Below, one piece after another: positions 31,474 through 49,026 of a stretch of DNA of 64,000 bases; within the stretch, counting starts at the first letter, position 1; the number at the start of each line of letters is the position of its first letter. Below the pieces are notes generated by a model. The model was given only the letters and a program-made list of their open reading frames with translations, was not told where the DNA came from and did no database searches. The position numbers and the translations under genes were made by a program. This DNA is from Enterococcus wangshanyuanii (GTDB taxonomy: Bacteria; Bacillota; Bacilli; Lactobacillales; Enterococcaceae), in assembly GCF_002197645.1 (NCBI RefSeq), contig NZ_CP021874.1, positions 2,976,001-3,040,000 of the forward strand. Direction: 5' to 3'.

Positions 31474-32619
31474 TTATAGTTCGATTTCTTCGAGGGCTTC
31501 TATAATGTCCCTTTTCATTTCTTCAGTAACATGGGTATAAATTCTTGTTGTTATTTCTGCATCGGTATGACCTACCCGTTCCATGATGGCCTTTATAGGT
31601 ATTCTCTTTTCAGCCAGCATTGAGATATGAGTGTGCCGGAGAATGTGGGAAGATAGGTTTTTATCAACGCCAGCATGCTTCGCAGCGCGTTTCAATGAAT
31701 CATTAAAATTACATATTGCTATAGGGTTGCCAAGAAGACTTGAGAAAAAGAAACCTTTATCAGTGAAGCGCTTGGAAATGTTCAGATTGTTTTCCAGTTT
31801 GCATTCATTCAATATATCCACAGCACGCTGGTTCAATTCTACTTTTCTGATGGCTGCAGCAGTCTTTGGCAACGTTTTGTGCAGCTCAGGGGTCCCTTTT
31901 GTTGTATAGTCCAGTGTTCCATCAATATTCAATATATTAGCATCTAAACATGAATAATCTAAGGCAATAGCTTCTCCAAACCTTACGCCAGTGAGTGCCA
32001 TGAACTCAGCCAAATCAGCAAACCGTTTGCTTTTAAATAAGTTACGCTGAATAAAGAGTATTTTTTTCAGTTCATCCTTTTCCAGATATTTGTTTTCAAT
32101 TTTTTCTAAGTCTTCATATTTCATTGCTTTCTGGTGAATGGTTACGTCATTGACTGGGTTGTGTTCGATCAAGTTTTTCTTTCGTGCATGCTCCAAAATA
32201 ATTCTGATAAGCGATTTACAATTTTTCACAGTGGAAAGTGAGTAATTATCTTCATAGTATAGTTTATCTAATCCCTGTTGGATCAGTGGGGTATCAATAT
32301 TTTTCACAATTATATCGTCTTTCAGGAATCTGCGAATGAGCTTCACATTCCATTCGTTGCGCCAGTATGTTGTTTCTTTGACGGTATGTTTGTATTTTTC
32401 CAGCCATTCTTCAAGGACATTTTTAAAGGTGTCCGATCCTTCTATTTTAATAGATAGCCGTTTGCGTATTTCCTCATTTAAGTATCGTTGAGCCTTATTC
32501 TGAGCTTGTCTTGAATTACTCAAAAGCGTAACTGATACAGTACGGTATTTTTCTGTGTAAGGGTCAGTGTATCTTTCCCGATACTTAAATTTACCGTCAT
32601 ATGTTTTTTCCATCCACAT
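31474..32619 (-). CDS. int: Tyrosine-type phage integrase
   Basis: This site-specific recombinase has 381 residues. The arm-binding and core-binding domains fill about 1-165 and the catalytic domain 175-375. Catalytic residues are Arg213 (TGVRFGEA), His325 and Arg328 (HILRH), His351 (GHTDAE) and the nucleophile Tyr361 (RIYTHV). AGGAG lies 10 nt before the ATG. It should mediate integration beside rlmH. Confidence 0.95.
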   Translation of the reverse strand: MWMEKTYDGKFKYRERYTDPYTEKYRTVSVTLLSNSRQAQNKAQRYLNEEIRKRLSIKIEGSDTFKNVLEEWLEKYKHTVKETTYWRNEWNVKLIRRFLKDDIIVKNIDTPLIQQGLDKLYYEDNYSLSTVKNCKSLIRIILEHARKKNLIEHNPVNDVTIHQKAMKYEDLEKIENKYLEKDELKKILFIQRNLFKSKRFADLAEFMALTGVRFGEAIALDYSCLDANILNIDGTLDYTTKGTPELHKTLPKTAAAIRKVELNQRAVDILNECKLENNLNISKRFTDKGFFFSSLLGNPIAICNFNDSLKRAAKHAGVDKNLSSHILRHTHISMLAEKRIPIKAIMERVGHTDAEITTRIYTHVTEEMKRDIIEALEEIEL

Positions 32620-43074: not shown

Positions 43075-43467
43075 ATGAATAAACCGAAGTTTCGGGCGTG
43101 GGATAAGGAACGAGGAATGATGAAATGTCACGGATTGTTTCAAGGGTGTACTATAGCCCAATTATACAATGATGATTATCAAAATTACATGAGGTTTTTG
43201 GATGAGATCATCCTCATGCAATACACCGGACTAAAAGACAAGAACGGTGTTGAGATTTATGAGGGGGATGTGGTTAGGCAAGTGGCTGGCGAATATAGTT
43301 ATATCGGTGCTGTAGAAAAAGACTGTTATCAATTTTATATTGATGGTATTGATCCACTTGATGCTTACAGTTTTGATGATGTAGCAGATACCAGTAATTG
43401 TACTGCGGATTTGGAAGTCATCGGAAACATCCACGAAAACCCAGAACTACTAAGTGGGGTGGAGTAA
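43075..43467 (+). CDS. YopX family phage protein
   Basis: This 130-residue protein has the family start KPKFRAWDKERGMM and the core MQYTGLKDKNGVEIYEGDVV. YopX proteins are widespread in Firmicute phages and have no known activity. Confidence 0.88.
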   Translation: MNKPKFRAWDKERGMMKCHGLFQGCTIAQLYNDDYQNYMRFLDEIILMQYTGLKDKNGVEIYEGDVVRQVAGEYSYIGAVEKDCYQFYIDGIDPLDAYSFDDVADTSNCTADLEVIGNIHENPELLSGVE

Positions 43468-43668
43468 ATGGAAAAAGCACATTACGTCATAGAATCAAAG
43501 CCAGTTAGAATAAGTGTTGTCTGCCCAAGTTGTGATGAAACTCAGTCATATGATTATGATTCGGTTTATAACAAATTTGGTGCCGATGCATATTACGGAA
43601 ATTGTGGCAGCGTTGAATGCAAAAATTGCCAAAAAGATATTGAGCTAGGAAGCTGCGAATACGATTAA
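43468..43668 (+). CDS. Small zinc-ribbon phage protein
   Basis: This 66-residue protein has two Cys pairs (VVCPSCDE and VECKNCQK), a likely zinc ribbon. It starts directly after the YopX stop codon. Confidence 0.7.
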   Translation: MEKAHYVIESKPVRISVVCPSCDETQSYDYDSVYNKFGADAYYGNCGSVECKNCQKDIELGSCEYD

Positions 43669-43680
43669 ACAACAAAAAAG

Positions 43681-43718
43681 CCTAGAGCCACAACTCTAGG
43701 TCCGAGCGGTGATCGCTC
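43681..43718 (+). other. Twin hairpins in the accessory gene region
   Basis: CCTAGAG/CTCTAGG (loop CCACAA) is followed by CGAGCG/CGCTCG (loop GTGAT), separated by 2-3 nt. No T tract follows, so it is not a normal terminator. It may be a transcript processing or protein-binding site in the 109-bp gap. Confidence 0.5.
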
Positions 43719-43777
43719 GTAAATAGTGTATCAAAGATATAGCGTGATTTCAAATAGATTTTAGATGAGGTGGAGAA

Positions 43778-43981
43778 ATGACAATGAAACGATATCTGCA
43801 ATTTTATGATAATCATGAAATGGAAGTATCAGCTATAACAAAACTGAATGACTTTGCGGAGCGTTACAACAATCTAGAAGTAATAGGTTATCAAGTGGTA
43901 TGGAACGAACAGATAAATAAAAAAGTAACTTATGTTTTAGTTAGTTATACAGTGGAGGACACAGCACATGGAAAAGATTGA
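43778..43981 (+). CDS. Small phage protein, unknown function
   Basis: This 67-residue protein follows GAGGTGGAG. It is mixed alpha/beta and overlaps the next gene by 14 bp. No family is recognised. Confidence 0.65.
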   Translation: MTMKRYLQFYDNHEMEVSAITKLNDFAERYNNLEVIGYQVVWNEQINKKVTYVLVSYTVEDTAHGKD

Positions 43982-44492
43982 GAAATTGATAGATGAAAAG
44001 ATCAATGATTGGGATGATTGCTTAAACCGTCATTATGCTGGTGAGATACAGAATTCGGATGTATTAATCAGAGCTGCTTTATCGGATATGGAACAGCTCA
44101 AATCATCACTACCCAAACCAGTTGAGGTGCCGGAGTTTGTGGTGAAATGGTATGAACTCCATAAACGAGATTTAGAGCAGGAGATTTTTGACTTACATGT
44201 AGATTTGTATCAAAAAAATCTTGGCGATCGTACAGAGTTTGAAAAATGGGCTTCTTTTACCGAGAACAACCCAATCGAAACACTGATCCGCATGAAAGAC
44301 GGCTACAAAGTGAAAAAAGAGCCGTTGTATTATATGCCAGTGCCGTGTCTTGATGAGACGTATTATGTGATTAATGAGAGTGGCATGGATGTCGCTTATG
44401 GTATAGGAGATAAATTTATGGGAAGTGAATTAGATAAATATTTTCCGGATATCAAGAAACTTGCTGTACCAGTGGAGGAGGATGCGGAATGA
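43968..44492 (+). CDS. DUF1642-type phage protein
   Basis: This 174-residue protein has the DUF1642 features: PKPVEVPEFVVKWYE in the middle and ENNPIETLIRMKDGYKVKKEP before the C-terminal region. Such proteins are frequent in enterococcal and streptococcal phages; function is unknown. Confidence 0.78.
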   Translation: MEKIEKLIDEKINDWDDCLNRHYAGEIQNSDVLIRAALSDMEQLKSSLPKPVEVPEFVVKWYELHKRDLEQEIFDLHVDLYQKNLGDRTEFEKWASFTENNPIETLIRMKDGYKVKKEPLYYMPVPCLDETYYVINESGMDVAYGIGDKFMGSELDKYFPDIKKLAVPVEEDAE

Positions 44493-44683
44493 AACTAATT
44501 GTGACTAATCAAAATGGCGTAACGGAATATCAGCCGGATACAGAATCAATAACTTATGCCGATATCATTGATTGTCTTTGTTACAATAAACCTTTTGCTT
44601 TCCATGATAATAAGGAACAAGTATTTACGTTTATCAATCCGAATTTGTGTGGTGTTATCACCATTGAGGAGGAAACGCTATGA
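44489..44683 (+). CDS. Small phage protein, unknown function
   Basis: This 64-residue acidic protein is coupled by 4-bp overlaps (ATGA) to both neighbours. No motif is recognised. Confidence 0.62.
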   Translation: MKLIVTNQNGVTEYQPDTESITYADIIDCLCYNKPFAFHDNKEQVFTFINPNLCGVITIEEETL

Positions 44684-45290
44684 CAGAGAAAACAAACATC
44701 GCAAAATTAAAAGAGACTGCAGAACAACTGCAAAATATCAAAAATGGTATTGGCACTAATGATAACAAAGTCAAGATGGATGCTTTTGTTGCTCTCAATA
44801 AGTTAAATAAAGTCATCGGACGATTAGAATCGGCTTGTGAAACAACTCCACCCTTTGCGGTCGGGGAGTATTACAGTTCTGATGGTGGCGAAAAAATAGT
44901 CAAAATATTAGGTAACGTAGCCAATCAAATTGAATATTGTGTATATGATGCTCAGTATGGCACTTTTAAAAAGTGGTACATTCCTGAAAAAGACATGACA
45001 GCTGTTTTTCCTAATTTAACACCAGCCACCGCCGAACAGATAGAAACGTTTAAGCGTGCCGAACAGTTTGCTGCTAAAGGACGTAAGTTGGATGAGTTTC
45101 GAGTGGGGATAGAATTGTCTTCGATGGAAAAGATGAAATAGTTGAAATCGATTCTTTAAGAGGAGATTGCGGTTTCAGCGGAACGTCTGATTTAGGAAAT
45201 TATTACATCATATCAACACCGTCACATTTTGGAATAACCCTCATCCAAACAGCCGAAGAACTGCAGGAGGTAAATGATGAATCTATTTGA
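44680..45290 (+). pseudogene. Phage accessory gene broken by a frameshift
   Basis: The first frame (44680-45141) encodes 153 residues and ends with a short unrelated tail after RVG. The -1 frame from 45108 to TGA 45290 continues sensibly (GDRIVFDGKDEIVEIDSLRGD in part: GDRIVFDGKDEIVEI, then GNYYIIST and GITLIQTAEELQEV). The join is in the run GTGGGGATAG at 45103-45112, where one missing G explains the shift. It is either a mutation, an assembly error, or less likely programmed slippage on GGG. Confidence 0.7.
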
Positions 45291-45387
45291 TTTTATAGAA
45301 AAACATCCAGCTCTGACAATATTTATCGTATTAATGATTTATTACACAGTGGTTGATGGAATAAAAGCTCTTTATGGAAAGGGATGA
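45277..45387 (+). CDS. Tiny single-span membrane protein
   Basis: This 36-residue frame starts at ATG 45277, 6 nt after GGAGG (45266-45270). Residues 12-28 (ALTIFIVLMIYYTVVDG) form one hydrophobic helix. It overlaps the end of the frameshifted gene, and a small membrane protein at this spot is common in such phages. Confidence 0.6.
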   Translation: MNLFDFIEKHPALTIFIVLMIYYTVVDGIKALYGKG

Positions 45388-45393
45388 GTAGGG

Positions 45394-45573
45394 ATGACCG
45401 ACAAATGCAAAAAATGCGGAACGGAAATACTGGAGTGCGATTGCCACCAGTGTCACGAATGTCATCCAGAAGAAATATGTGAAACGTGTGGTGGTTGCCA
45501 CATAGACCACTGGGAAGCAGTAGATTGTTGGGCATCAGTAAATGATCCCGACTATGATCCGTGGGATATATAA
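45394..45573 (+). CDS. Cysteine-rich zinc-binding phage protein
   Basis: This 59-residue protein starts at ATG 45394 after GAGTAGGG. It contains at least nine cysteines and several histidines in pairs (CKKCGTE, CDCHQCHECH, CETCGGCH), followed by an acidic aromatic tail (DPDYDPWDI). It probably binds two zinc ions. Function unknown. Confidence 0.7.
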   Translation: MTDKCKKCGTEILECDCHQCHECHPEEICETCGGCHIDHWEAVDCWASVNDPDYDPWDI

Positions 45574-45637
45574 ACTAAAAGGGAGGAGTAGGAGATTTGT
45601 CCGGACGCAAAAAGCTTTTTACTCCTTTGTGATTATT

Positions 45638-45817
45638 ATGGAATACGCAGTTTATAAAGGCGATGACCTTGTCGCTGTAGGCACTAAACAGGAATGTGCA
45701 AATCAACTAAACGTTAAGCAATCAACGATTGAGTTTTGGGCAACACCTAGTAATTTGAAACGTGATAAAGGCAAGAGGACGGTTGCAGTGAGGATGGATG
45801 GTGATATCTGTGACTAA
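45638..45817 (+). CDS. Small helix-turn-helix-like phage protein
   Basis: This 59-residue protein (MEYAVYKGDDLVAVGTKQ at the start) has a central KQECANQLNVKQSTIEFW segment like a minimal DNA-binding helix pair. Similar short proteins occur in enterococcal and lactococcal phages. The ribosome binding site is poor; an in-frame GTG at 45629 is an alternative start. Confidence 0.65.
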   Translation: MEYAVYKGDDLVAVGTKQECANQLNVKQSTIEFWATPSNLKRDKGKRTVAVRMDGDICD

Positions 45818-46277
45818 GAAAATACTAGATGCCTGTTGTGGCAGCCGAATGTTTTGGTACGACAAACAGAATAAAGATGTCCTGTACATGGATAACCGAC
45901 AACTTGATGACACTCTCTGTGATGGTCGAGCGTTAAAGGTTGAACCTGATGTGATAGCAGACTTTAGACAGATGCCATTTGAGGATAATAGATTTTATCA
46001 TGTGGTATTTGATCCACCGCATTTAGTAAAAGCAGGCGAAAATAGTTGGTTGGCCAAGAAATACGGAAAGCTTGATGAATCAACTTGGCCAAGCGATATC
46101 AAACAGGGATTTGATGAATGTATGAGAGTTCTTAAGCCTAACGGAACGCTAGTCTTCAAGTGGAATGAAGATCAAATTAAACTATCAGAAATTCTAAAAG
46201 TGATTGACTGCGAACCCTTATACGGTAACAAAAGAGCTAAAACTCATTGGATTGTATTTATGAAACCCACCAACTAA
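45798..46277 (+). CDS. Phage class I methyltransferase-like protein
   Basis: This 159-residue protein has the SAM-site start KKILDACCGSRMFWYDK, an acidic strand end (VLYMDNRQ) and a catalytic-type FDPPHLV motif (DPPH). It probably methylates DNA or a small target; specificity is unknown. It overlaps the previous gene by 20 bp. GTG 45810 is an alternative start that gives MTKKILDACC, the form expected from relatives. Confidence 0.75.
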   Translation: MVISVTKKILDACCGSRMFWYDKQNKDVLYMDNRQLDDTLCDGRALKVEPDVIADFRQMPFEDNRFYHVVFDPPHLVKAGENSWLAKKYGKLDESTWPSDIKQGFDECMRVLKPNGTLVFKWNEDQIKLSEILKVIDCEPLYGNKRAKTHWIVFMKPTN

Positions 46278-46310
46278 CAGCACAGTTGGCGGAGGATTGG
46301 AGGGGTGAGG

Positions 46311-46517
46311 ATGTGTCAGTATTGCCAAGGTACAAGTTTTATCGATAATGATTTATTGATTGAGTTCGATGATAGCGAGGAACTCGTGGACACAGTAAAG
46401 GTTTATGTTACATCAGAAGCTAAACTATTTCTGCATAATGACTATGGAGCAGTAGCGGTACCAATTAATTATTGCCCGATGTGTGGCAGGAAGTTAGAAA
46501 GAGAGGGAAATGAATGA
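46311..46517 (+). CDS. Small zinc-ribbon phage protein
   Basis: This 68-residue protein starts at ATG 46311 after GGAGGGGTGAGG. The pairs CQYCQG at the N-terminus and CPMCGRKL at the C-terminus form a split zinc ribbon. It overlaps the next start by 4 bp. Confidence 0.72.
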   Translation: MCQYCQGTSFIDNDLLIEFDDSEELVDTVKVYVTSEAKLFLHNDYGAVAVPINYCPMCGRKLEREGNE

Positions 46518-46732
46518 TCAGAAAAATATATAAGCATTGGGAAGCAATTTTAATGGTTCTACTGTTTATCTCAGCAATAGTCCACATGTCATTTGGCTAT
46601 GAGCTTAGAGCCTTGATATATGTAATCTTATTATTGGGTATAGGTCTGCAAACAAATTTAGAAGAACTGGTCAAATGGGTAAAGACTTTATGCAGTTTGC
46701 TTTACTGGAAAGAAAAAGGAAGAGAGGAGTAA
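46514..46732 (+). CDS. Small phage membrane protein
   Basis: This 72-residue protein has two hydrophobic helices (about 10-25 and 32-48) and a basic/acidic C-terminus. Function is unknown. Confidence 0.65.
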   Translation: MIRKIYKHWEAILMVLLFISAIVHMSFGYELRALIYVILLLGIGLQTNLEELVKWVKTLCSLLYWKEKGREE

Positions 46733-46736
46733 TGAT

Positions 46737-47180
46737 TTGTACGAATGGTTGAGTAAATACCAGGAATGGGAACAGAAAATAGCTGTGCTCGATTGGGAGC
46801 TAGGTACCTATAAAAATGAGCTTAAACGTTGGAAAGATTCTAATGATCTTGGTAAATACTCTCTTGTTAAAGAGTCAAAAGCCAGTAAATTAGAAGATAT
46901 CATCGAATCTCTTGAATATGATTTAGCTTTGAACATGAATAATCTATATGATTTGAAGAAAGTTATTCATTCGTTCAGAGGTATTGAACAGCACATCATT
47001 AGAATGAAATATGTAGAAGGATTGACTCTAAAAGAAATCGCCAGTGAATTAGGGTATACCTATGATCATATAAGAAGAAAACACAGTAAAATACTAGGGA
47101 AAGTGGAATTTAAAGAAAAATATGTGATTTTAAGGTCAAAAAGCCACAAAGAAGCCACAGACCCTATTGAAAAAACGTAA
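46737..47180 (+). CDS. ArpU/sigma-like late transcription regulator
   Basis: This 147-residue protein starts at TTG 46737 after GAGAGGAG. The C-terminal half resembles sigma-70 region 4 (IEQHIIRMKYVEGLTLKEIA followed by GYTYDHIRRKHSKIL). Proteins of this type lie just before the packaging genes and activate late transcription. Here the next 1 kb is non-coding, which makes it a plausible regulator of that RNA as well. Confidence 0.8.
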   Translation: MYEWLSKYQEWEQKIAVLDWELGTYKNELKRWKDSNDLGKYSLVKESKASKLEDIIESLEYDLALNMNNLYDLKKVIHSFRGIEQHIIRMKYVEGLTLKEIASELGYTYDHIRRKHSKILGKVEFKEKYVILRSKSHKEATDPIEKT

Positions 47181-47194
47181 TATAATAGTATTAT
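47167..47194 (+). promoter_or_regulatory. Probable promoter of the giant RNA candidate
   Basis: TTGAAA (47167-47172) and TATTAT (47189-47194) are 16 bp apart. A perfect TATAAT (47181-47186) also occurs there with a poor -35. Transcription would start near 47201. Confidence 0.5.
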
Positions 47195-47406
47195 CAAAAG
47201 TTTGCAAAATTTACCTACAGCAAACAATTACACAGCTATCTTCCCTATTTTAAAAGACGGTGATTATTGCTGTAGGTAGTTTTATAAGCACTCACAGGCT
47301 AACAACAAAAAAATTATAAAAGGATGGTGTAACATCTCCTCAAAAGGTTTACGCATTCTTGCCTGTGGGTGTATTACATAAAAGCTATGTAAAAGGAGGT
47401 AATAAA

Positions 47407-47469
47407 ATGAATTGGTTTTGGTATTGGCATTATATCAATAAAAACGGTAAACACGGCATCATGTGTTAG
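47407..47469 (+). CDS. 20-residue aromatic micro-ORF in the RNA region
   Basis: ATG 47407 lies 6 nt after a very strong AAAAGGAGGT. The peptide is rich in Trp/Tyr (NWFWYWHYINKNGKHG) and ends at TAG 47467-47469. It lies between two copies of TTGCCTGTGGGTGT. It may be a real micropeptide or a decoy ribosome site within the structured RNA. Confidence 0.45.
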   Translation: MNWFWYWHYINKNGKHGIMC

Positions 47470-47620
47470 TTGATTGAAACGAACAAAGCTTGCCTGTGGG
47501 TGTTTTACACAGGACCAATGCTCTGCAACTTTGAGTTGTAGGCAGCATCCGGCATCTACTGGATGTTAAGAAAAACTAGGGAGACGTTCCAGATACAGGC
47601 AGTTTGGTTAGTCCTGTATT

Positions 47621-47705
47621 GTCACTGTGGCGAAATGAGAAACGCTAAGGGCATTATCTCGGATAGTGAAACTTATAGTGCAAGGTTTGATTCCTTGTCA
47701 GTGGC
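47621..47705 (+). ncRNA. tRNA-like domain 1 within the RNA
   Basis: A 7-bp closing helix GTCACTG/CAGTGGC (47621-47627 with 47699-47705), a D-arm-like GCG...CGC (47630-47645) and a T-arm-like CAAGG-TTTGATT-CCTTG (47681-47697) are in tRNA order. The middle does not form a normal anticodon arm (CATTATC/GATAGTG with a 3-nt loop), so it is not a standard tRNA. Confidence 0.5.
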
Positions 47706-47708
47706 AAA

Positions 47709-47839
47709 TGCTAAGTGACGGAATAGGTAGACGTATTGCGGGAAAGATCAGATAAGGAACTAGAACGTAGGCTAATTCCTGAAGAATCCCTGATAAAAAA
47801 TTAATCTGATCATGTGTGGTGCAAATCCACACCTTAGCA
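47709..47839 (+). ncRNA. tRNA-like domain 2 within the RNA
   Basis: The closing helix TGCTAAG/CTTAGCA (47709-47715 with 47833-47839), a leucine-tRNA style D-arm (TGACGGAATAGGTAGACGT) and a T-arm GTGTGG-TGCAAAT-CCACAC (47814-47832) are present. The anticodon arm is replaced by an 8-bp helix GATCAGAT/ATCTGATC (47746-47753 with 47804-47811) holding an inner stem AGGAACTAG/CTAATTCCT. Confidence 0.5.
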
Positions 47840-47912
47840 ATTGGGAGGACTAAATTGCCCTTGGCTTTTAGTATCTGACCCATTAAACAGCGGGACGTAT
47901 GCCCCCACAAAT

Positions 47913-47989
47913 AGCAACCGAGGATGTGGTAGGGTTAGAGCCTGACGAGGTGGAAGCGGTGATACTGACGGAGTATCGTGTAGGTTGTT
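47913..47989 (+). ncRNA. Structured domain 3 within the RNA
   Basis: AGCAACC (47913-47919) pairs with GGTTGTT (47983-47989) and encloses a perfect hairpin GATACT/AGTATC (47961-47966 with 47972-47977). It lacks a T-arm, so it is not tRNA-like. Confidence 0.45.
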
Positions 47990-47996
47990 AAAAAAT

Positions 47997-48071
47997 AGGT
48001 GAGGCGCTAGCACAATGGTAGTGCGCCAGATTGATAATCTGGAGATGTTGTTCGAATCGACGGCTGAGCCT
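47997..48071 (+). tRNA. tRNA-like domain with GAU (Ile) anticodon loop
   Basis: D-arm GCAC-AATGGTA-GTGC (48010-48024), anticodon arm CCAGA-TTGATAA-TCTGG (48026-48042, anticodon GAT) and T-arm with TTCGAAT loop (48046-48062) are close to a normal isoleucine tRNA. The acceptor does not pair in the normal register. Instead 47997-48005 pairs with 48063-48071 through a helix containing a tandem G-A mismatch. It may be a decayed phage tRNA or a mimic inside the giant RNA. Confidence 0.4.
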
Positions 48072-48105
48072 TAAAATTGTGAAAAGGGCGGTTTAGCCTA
48101 GATAT

Positions 48106-48135
48106 ACAGCATCATTTCAAGTGGTGCTGTTTTCT
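48106..48135 (+). terminator. Terminator at the end of the RNA region
   Basis: ACAGCATCA (48106-48114) pairs with TGGTGCTGT (48122-48130, one G-T pair), followed by TTTTCTT. Confidence 0.78.
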
Positions 48136-48197
48136 TACATAAGTACAAGATCAGTCATTGACTGTAGCATATTTCATAAAAGTTAGGAGTGAAAGAA

Positions 48198-48488
48198 ATG
48201 TTTATCCCAAAAGAAGTAGAAAGATTAATGACAATATACAAAAGTGTGTCGGAAAAAGAATTTGCTAAGATTATCAAAGATGATGCACAAGCAAAAGCGG
48301 ATATGGAATTTACAGCAAAATGGTTAGAATCAGAATTGCAGCCATTTATAGACACGATAAAAGGAATTTTTAGACAAGTCATGGAGTCACTAGAACCATT
48401 AGTAGCTCAAATTTCAGAAAATCCCGGAGTGTTAAATTCATTAAACAAAAGCTTGACCAAAGAAAATGGTTTTAGTCTAGGTGCTTAA
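48198..48488 (+). CDS. Phage protein before terminase, unknown function
   Basis: This 96-residue helical protein starts at ATG 48198, 8 nt after AGGAG; an in-frame GTG at 48189 overlaps that site. It is charged with likely coiled coil in the middle. No family is recognised. Confidence 0.7.
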   Translation: MFIPKEVERLMTIYKSVSEKEFAKIIKDDAQAKADMEFTAKWLESELQPFIDTIKGIFRQVMESLEPLVAQISENPGVLNSLNKSLTKENGFSLGA

Positions 48489-48549
48489 TATTATTTAAAG
48501 GTCATCGCATTGCGGTGGCTTTTTATATTGTTTAGAAAGGGGTGAGGTC

Positions 48550-49026
48550 ATGGCGAAGTTGACAGAAAAACAAAGGGCTTTTGCTGAAGAGTATGTATTG
48601 AATTTCGGTAACGGAACGCAAGCAGCAATTAAAGCAGGGTATTCCAAAAAGACCGCAAGAGTAATAGCGAAAGAAAACCTTACAAAACCTAACATTCAAG
48701 ATTACATTAAAAAAATCACTGCTCAAGCGAATCAAGAACGAATAATGAGTGTTGAAGAAGCTCTTTCTATTTCTGCATCAATAGCACGTGGTCAGCCTCA
48801 AAAGTATGAATTTCAAGAATTCGATCCGGAAACGAATGAAGTTGTGAGCGCAGAGAAAAAAGCTTTTTCTGCTGGCATCAAGGAGCGAAACCAAGCGCTT
48901 GAGCATATTTATAAAGCGAATATGGTGTTTGAGAAGCCAGAAGATAGTAATAAGAATGCAGACGCTATCGAATGGGCTGAAATGGTTGCAGAAGCTGAAA
49001 AAGAACTAGGTGCTGCAGATGGATAA
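48550..49026 (+). CDS. terS: Terminase small subunit
   Basis: This 158-residue DNA-recognition subunit has the Terminase_2 start LTEKQRAFAEEYVLNFGNGTQA (read as LTEKQRAFAEEYVLN) and AAIKAGYSKKTARVIA, a helix-turn-helix for pac/cos binding. It overlaps the large subunit's start. Confidence 0.92.
   Translation: MAKLTEKQRAFAEEYVLNFGNGTQAAIKAGYSKKTARVIAKENLTKPNIQDYIKKITAQANQERIMSVEEALSISASIARGQPQKYEFQEFDPETNEVVSAEKKAFSAGIKERNQALEHIYKANMVFEKPEDSNKNADAIEWAEMVAEAEKELGAADG

Follow-up and report, generated by a model that had tools for sequence, protein, structure and literature searches.

The question raised by this locus is what a prophage of Enterococcus wangshanyuanii carries in the roughly 1 kb between its late regulator and its terminase, where a preliminary description had found no protein gene and had proposed a giant structured RNA, possibly of the GOLLD class. 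The window (the whole 64,000-nt stretch of DNA analysed) has an integrase at 31474-32619, and the interval lies inside a prophage, with the regulator, a 99-aa ORF and the terminase as its neighbours. The regulator gene that adjoins it (46737-47180, + strand) is sigma-70 region 4-like (phrog_36 transcriptional regulator, E 1.1e-23; Sigma70_r4, E 4.8e-8), and downstream stand the genes of the terminase small subunit (TerS; 48550-49026, + strand; PF03592, E 1.1e-29) and of TerL, just as had been described. Between ORFs 46737-47180 and 48189-48488 there is indeed no + strand ORF of at least 60 aa, and the - strand of the interval holds one 70-aa ORF at 47698-47910. The stretch 47195-48140 folds at -283.3 kcal/mol, against a mean of -244.8 kcal/mol for 20 shuffles (z -5.28; 0 of 20 as good). 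An intrinsic terminator, seen in the fold, closes the RNA on the + strand at 48106-48136; terminator-like sites are commoner than in shuffles (4 found, 0.7 expected), and the best of them is 48106-48130. Together with the tRNA-like units described below, the fold and the terminator support the first part of the proposal, that of a large, structured RNA of phage origin which includes tRNA mimics and ends in a terminator.

Comparison and folding divide the interval, after a leader, into units termed here beads F, A, B, C, J, D and E, all on the + strand and mostly a few nucleotides apart. Bead F (47515-47619) is structured (fold -34.4 kcal/mol) and also occurs in viral contig L147; its pattern scan matched one viral contig, and beads F and A searched against 276 genomes gave, apart from the copies in their own genome, a 32-nt piece as the best match (E 1.3e-4). 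Bead A (47622-47705) folds into a tRNA-like unit with acceptor CACTG/CAGTG and T loop TTTGATT but without an anticodon arm of normal form, and its acceptor is seen by eye with other middles in L018, L149, L152-L154, L162 and L166. Bead B (47710-47838) is an anticodon-less tRNA-Leu-like scaffold with an 80-nt payload. There follow hairpin C (47841-47882; fold -12.7 kcal/mol; similar by eye in L018 and L013), the short bead J (47884-47909), bead D (47913-47989), and bead E (47997-48072), which is tRNA-Ile(GAU)-like with an odd acceptor stem and has relatives in L018 and L003. Beads A and B are the two tRNA mimics with non-standard middles that had been noted earlier, and bead E is the near-normal tRNA-Ile-like domain, with a tandem G-A mismatch visible by eye in the acceptor stem. 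The single Rfam match above cut-off in the window region is to bead E (tRNA, RF00005, 43.3 bits at 48008-48061). No full cloverleaf with an anticodon arm was found, as ARAGORN returned 0 tRNA over the whole window and the Rfam tRNA model matched bead E only (positions 8-63 of 71).

Loci L023 and L024 share a block with window 43329-48567; in one of them it stops where the array ends, in the other inside terS. The host genome holds, besides the window copy, a second identical copy (961 bases) and a third over 897 bases with 4 differences; at a fourth locus there is a single diverged bead. Over 4440 bases (second copy) and 4748 bases (third copy) of the stretches compared, identity to the window is 99.9%. 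The third copy diverges at 48076, where bead E ends, and the second within terS at 48567, which gives the array the look of a recombination boundary among these copies. Within the genus, 13 of 22 genomes, the host included, match at E<=0.001, one of the 13 (L016) being rejected because it looks like coding DNA. By eye, these relatives have a common leader (promoter and hairpins H1 and H2) followed by varied content: an amidase-like ORF (L006), another ORF (L007), small ORFs (L012, L019, L020) or subsets of beads (L008, L013, L014, L018, L021).

Further afield, beads stand in other order and company in viral contigs L147, L149 and L152-L155, lie between an ArpU-family regulator and terS in an Enterococcus faecium plasmid record with terS and terL (L166), and also occur in E. 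hirae phage EH-TP1 (L167) and in IME197 (L168). In the lytic Schiekvirus EFP01 (L162) they sit in a tRNA cluster, immediately 3' of a ROOL RNA (264.8 bits). One slot of some relatives holds a normal tRNA (L152, 61 bits; L166, L167, L168). A search of phages and plasmids with the whole RNA gave no match at E<=1e-5; at E<=10 it reached Listeria phages at weak E-values of 0.05-0.2, among them B054, which carries a relative of bead B, and two plasmids (E 2 and 7). In the viral contigs, matches to the pattern TTGCCTGTGGGTGT, among those listed, were taken to be mostly chance and were set aside, and one of four stretches with TAGCAACCGAGGAWGYG was relevant (L149). Because a relative may have just one bead, a different subset or a different order, as the comparison proposed in the preliminary description brought out, an array of short, interchangeable RNA beads describes the interval better than a single giant RNA does. 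The alternative offered there, an undescribed giant RNA, comes nearer than GOLLD but does not capture this string of exchangeable units. Also beyond what had been listed are the two further near-identical copies in the host genome, the sharing of bead D with other Enterococcaceae, and the likeness of bead J to a toxin-linked RNA. Two side observations belong here: EFP01 positions L162:1788-2730 comprise ROOL RNA and, at once after it, beads of the array kind, and very short tRNA-like units of acceptor and T arm only are seen by eye at L172 ~1613-1660, at L162 ~2890-2935 and, in L352, before the K core discussed below.

Anticodon-less tRNA-Leu-like phage beads form a family, defined in the present analysis. 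Its D arm was sought in viral contigs (at least 120 stretches), 395 Lactobacillales genomes (26 with a match) and the other collected loci, giving at least 146 distinct sites, true tRNA genes included (ARAGORN called 31 of 147 first-pass candidates, among the matches listed). Pairing was then assessed with the acceptor and T arm left free, and with 600 random anchors as the control. Among the matches listed, at least 11 of the 12 acceptor and T-helix positions are paired at 108 of 146 sites versus 31 of 600 random anchors, and all 12 at 87 of 146 versus 1 of 600. The T loop TGCAAAT occurs in 90 of the 108 well-paired sites among the matches listed, though this loop too had been left free, and at least 61 acceptor sequences are represented, with all four Watson-Crick pairs at five of the six acceptor positions. 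At least 95 distinct beads have a TGCAAAT-type loop; of the 95 listed, 71 are from viral contigs, 15 from Lactobacillales genomes, 6 from named phages (SPP1 included) and 3 from the host's own genome or genus. Bead B, represented in this count by its L159 entry, combines the D arm, covarying acceptor and T helices, the TGCAAAT-type T loop and a payload replacing the anticodon arm, whereas bead A differs from this type in D arm and T loop and was left out of the count. In the loci scanned, B-type beads had no Rfam match.

The scaffold is constant and the payload variable. Payloads stand where the anticodon arm would be and fall into at least 70 clusters, 62 of them singletons, among the matches listed; some payloads are kept between phages, in clusters of up to 11 members among the matches listed. 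Their folding is slightly better than that of shuffles (mean z -0.76; 12 of 94 below -2, among the matches listed). The same payload is found under different acceptors in L146, L271 and L293, and that of L146, searched against 276 genomes, has a full-length match only in its own genome and one congener. By eye, three sequences suggest a short pseudoknot in the payloads of window bead B, EH-TP1 and B054 (GGGA/TCCC vs AGGT/ACCT). Five near-alike relatives of bead B (L316-L318, L322, L324) come from different species of one genus (g44) and may go back to vertical inheritance or to a common prophage. Relatives that stand alone are found in Listeria phage B054 (L170), SPP1 (L172, between genes 9 and 11), Latilactobacillus phages (L173-L175), Weissella phage PWc (L176) and Leuconostoc phage Ln-9 (L177). 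A packaging RNA was set aside as an explanation since the stand-alone beads of SPP1, PWc and Ln-9 lie away from the terminase. CRISPR mimicry was rejected: the L021/L022 payload has 14 nt in common with what we take to be the SpCas9 tracrRNA, but its same-payload relatives L210, L261, L271 and L293 differ at that stretch.

Bead D is like bead B in that its ends are kept and its middle is variable. Aligned over 16 of 18 distinct forms, its closing stem, conserved together with its flanks, has 97.3% paired cells and two pairs changed on both sides, a number reached by 7 of 500 shuffles. Model R1, with which window bead D scores 51.4 bits as one of the 16 training rows, found a match in 7 of 295 genomes of Lactobacillales, the 7 belonging to a single family. 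Ten bead D loci came from the model; by eye, four of the five new ones examined are clear bead arrays, and L453 has little beyond D.

Among known architectures, tRNA scaffolds have been engineered for RNA expression, with a foreign RNA replacing the tRNA anticodon arm; these are laboratory constructs, whereas the beads are a natural phage family. Phage tRNA arrays likewise consist of tandem tRNA-like units a few nucleotides apart, and some relatives of the present array hold a true tRNA in one slot; unlike such arrays, beads A and B have no normal anticodon arm, bead B has the T loop TGCAAAT, and ARAGORN finds none of them. No description of such bead arrays was found in the open-access literature.

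Bead J is like RNA that lies beside PemK-fold genes, aligning locally to L408 (27 nt) and L416 (35 nt). The alignment of the window array to the RNAs of these two loci was better than 300 of 300 shuffles, a test that overstates the relation because bead J had been picked by scanning for J; among ten others, the best alignment (L424) was reached by 18 of 300 shuffles. With this caveat of selection, bead J has the sequence relation to a toxin-linked RNA that would be looked for in a type III antitoxin. The pattern scan of viral contigs for bead J gave 20 stretches. The J sites represent 17 distinct contexts: 10 bead arrays, 3 with a PemK-like gene (L408, L412 and L416, the first two near-alike), 1 RNA without a PemK gene (L419) and 3 in coding-looking DNA (L402; L403 with L413; L410), and thus the pattern also matches by chance. 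The PemK domain is recognized in the J-linked genes (PF02452, 6.4e-10 and 2.4e-11), for which PADLOC gave no match. Two J repeats are seen by eye in L404, L407 and L418 and in the gene-linked L408 and L416; in window J a single repeat is clear, and its 18-nt core region contains two mismatches. No toxin gene lies beside window J, and a search of the host genome for the PemK-like protein gave no match.

Related PemK-like genes were found in 21 of 295 genomes (many matches weak) and in 4 plasmids. Each of the 11 examined (L421-L428, L445-L447) is followed, by eye, by a short stretch containing two or three small hairpins and a terminator, the sequence of this stretch being different in each. Together with L408, L412 and L416, these loci may represent a type III-like system with its RNA downstream of a PemK/MazF-fold gene. 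Type III toxin-antitoxin systems, as described, have the antitoxin RNA upstream of the toxin (PMC5086642), and the J-linked systems would therefore be a variant. In both, a PemK/MazF-fold protein is linked to a short structured RNA with repeats; they differ in the side on which the RNA lies, and window J differs also in having no toxin gene.

A second bead, K, is absent from the window but present in the sister array L149, and matches RNA beside DUF3644 + EC042_2821 genes in Listeria, Corynebacterium and Streptococcus phage records. At L163:2501-3580, L164:2490-3683 and L165:1300-2377, and in viral contigs, a conserved small RNA adjoins such genes (PADLOC PDC-S19) and is oriented opposite to its gene. 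The gene with its small RNA is a candidate for an RNA-linked defence system, and DUF3644 is counted among the HEPN families by Anantharaman (2013). The viral scan (74 stretches) and the loci already collected gave 77 K sites, 52 of which have a DUF3644-like ORF nearby. Under an automatic rule (bead sequence or ARAGORN tRNA within 700 bases), K lies near beads or tRNAs at 0 of the 52 gene-linked sites versus 11 of the 25 others (Fisher p 7e-7, the sites not being independent; one of the 11, L329, counts only via a 10-mer 578 nt away), and 14 of the 77 have neither. Counted by distinct 60-nt K core, 31 are gene-linked, 10 near beads or tRNAs and 14 neither, with none common to the groups; this gives 0 of 31 gene-linked cores versus 10 of 24 others near beads or tRNAs. 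A tRNA-like bead directly follows K in L331 and L371 and a short one precedes it in L352, and K stands beside tRNAs in L341, L374, L380, L386, L393 and L347.

By analogy, the array may be an RNA counter-defence array whose beads are stable decoys or antitoxin mimics, a reading to which we give an even chance. Its precedent is pseudo-ToxI of phage PhiTE, a phage RNA that mimics an abortive-infection system's antitoxin RNA and that was gained and altered through expansion and recombination (Blower 2012, PMC3475682); unlike the array, pseudo-ToxI has one repeat type, no tRNA-like scaffold and no series of unlike beads. From a late promoter, the RNA would run through a leader of two hairpins and the tandem beads to the terminator just before the terminase, giving a temperate enterococcal phage an abundant modular non-coding RNA at the head of its packaging operon. 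Several of the beads have a tRNA-like fold with a payload in place of the anticodon arm, and others are short structured RNAs. Released or protected as tRNA-like units and acting in trans, the beads would bind toxins or RNases from abortive-infection, toxin-antitoxin or similar systems, whether these belong to the host or to rival prophages, and prevent their activity throughout the lytic cycle; the tRNA fold would probably serve processing (RNase P and Z) and stability. What the sequences themselves establish is the array with its families of beads, a fixed scaffold under a changing payload, beads taken up again by different phages, and relatives of J and K linked to genes; transcription, processing, binding and neutralisation, and the targets of beads other than J, are steps that we infer.

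The decoy reading draws on the fold of the interval, on the covariation of bead B around a conserved T loop and on the diversity of payloads, since a constant shell with a variable core is as expected of inhibitors in an arms race. It also draws on the recurrence of beads, differently ordered, among prophages, in a phage-like plasmid and in the tRNA cluster of a lytic phage, on the resemblance of J to RNA beside PF02452 genes, and on the split of K between DUF3644-linked copies and copies near beads or tRNAs, with DUF3644 being a HEPN family and a PADLOC candidate. The gene-linked relatives suggest binding partners for J and K; from this resemblance we infer inhibition. The reading is weakened by the absence of K from the window, by the single, mismatched repeat of window J, by L419 without a PemK gene, by the 3 of 17 J contexts that look coding and by a host without a PemK-like protein, as well as by payload folding near that of shuffles and by the 14 K sites with neither gene nor beads.

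The folding of the payloads bears on the rival that survives best, in which the scaffold acts by itself, binding a tRNA-modifying, processing or synthetase protein, or serves only stability and processing, with the payload as filler. The D arm and T loop being the conserved parts and the near-random folding of payloads are what it would predict; it is nonetheless unlikely, given that some payloads are conserved between phages (the clusters of up to 11 among the matches listed) and that J and K have gene-linked relatives.

Somewhat less probable is a cis-acting late leader, that is, put-like antitermination or attenuation into the packaging operon with a 20-codon ORF as leader peptide. Its position suits such a role, after a late promoter and before terminator and terminase. 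The promoter first proposed, TTGAAA-16-TATTAT, is present (10 of 12 matches), but such sites are no commoner than in shuffles (3 found, 3.6 expected), and the pattern scan by itself puts promoter-like sites not above chance; by-eye alignment with TATTATGATA-type sites of relatives makes TATAAT at 47181-47186 (+ strand) the more likely -10. Hairpins H1 (47212-47278, + strand; fold -20.0 kcal/mol) and H2 (47291-47371, + strand; fold -23.0 kcal/mol) are common to relatives with different downstream genes, which favours a leader function. Their alignment (7 sequences, 3 with a shortened H2) has two-sided changes in 6 of 26 predicted pairs and an unfavourable overall covariation term of +1.67. The ORF MNWFWYWHYINKNGKHGIMC (47407-47469, + strand), absent from the earlier list, is a candidate with a strong ribosome-binding site and has a 23-codon counterpart in L157/L021. 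A cis role can hold for this leader, and may coexist with trans-acting beads, yet it leaves the beads unexplained, which stand elsewhere in SPP1 (genes 9/11), PWc, Ln-9 and the EFP01 tRNA cluster. As further observations, the tiny post-leader ORFs of the window (47407-47469) and of L157 (after 1381) have a similar aromatic start (WYWHY and AYWHW) and identical last two residues, MC, and 47489-47509 is a second copy of the H2 3' arm directly before the beads, likely a recombination trace.

That beads A, B, D and E are a decaying phage tRNA cluster, tRNA genes whose anticodon arms are being lost and which have no function today, is improbable: bead E still scores as tRNA and a normal tRNA occupies one slot of L152 (61 bits), L166, L167 and L168, but decay would hardly leave at least 61 paired acceptor sequences and a T loop kept over at least 95 beads of unrelated phages, or stand-alone beads in SPP1 and others. 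Least credible of all is a GOLLD- or ROOL-class RNA, both being described as large structured phage RNAs of unknown function, often near tRNA islands, and as single integrated cage-forming folds (PMC12286853): size, phage origin, tRNA neighbourhood and the ROOL directly before such beads in EFP01 recall them, but neither the GOLLD (RF02032) nor the ROOL (RF03087) covariance model matches the window region up to E 10, and the relatives are modular (RF02032 matched 0 of 60 relatives, a count that does not prove absence since the search matched 0 of 14 control genomes).

Returning to the decoy reading, a wider form of it, to which we lean rather less than to the reading itself, is that phages of Firmicutes, and perhaps others, carry RNA counter-defence islands: strings of exchangeable inhibitors, many of them presenting a hypervariable payload on an anticodon-less tRNA scaffold that does not vary, with one toxin or nuclease for each bead to match and with the window as one such island. 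If so, these would parallel, at the level of RNA, the islands of anti-CRISPR and anti-defence genes, and the catalogue of payloads would point at undiscovered RNA-guarded defence systems. The comparison adds a large phage RNA family, without Rfam match in the loci scanned, that keeps its tRNA shell and changes its contents; two links outward, to PemK-fold and DUF3644 genes with RNA partners; and, for ROOL, a new neighbour and perhaps a setting. Should the decoy reading be true, phage genomes would hold readable lists of RNA inhibitors, each payload leading to a defence protein.
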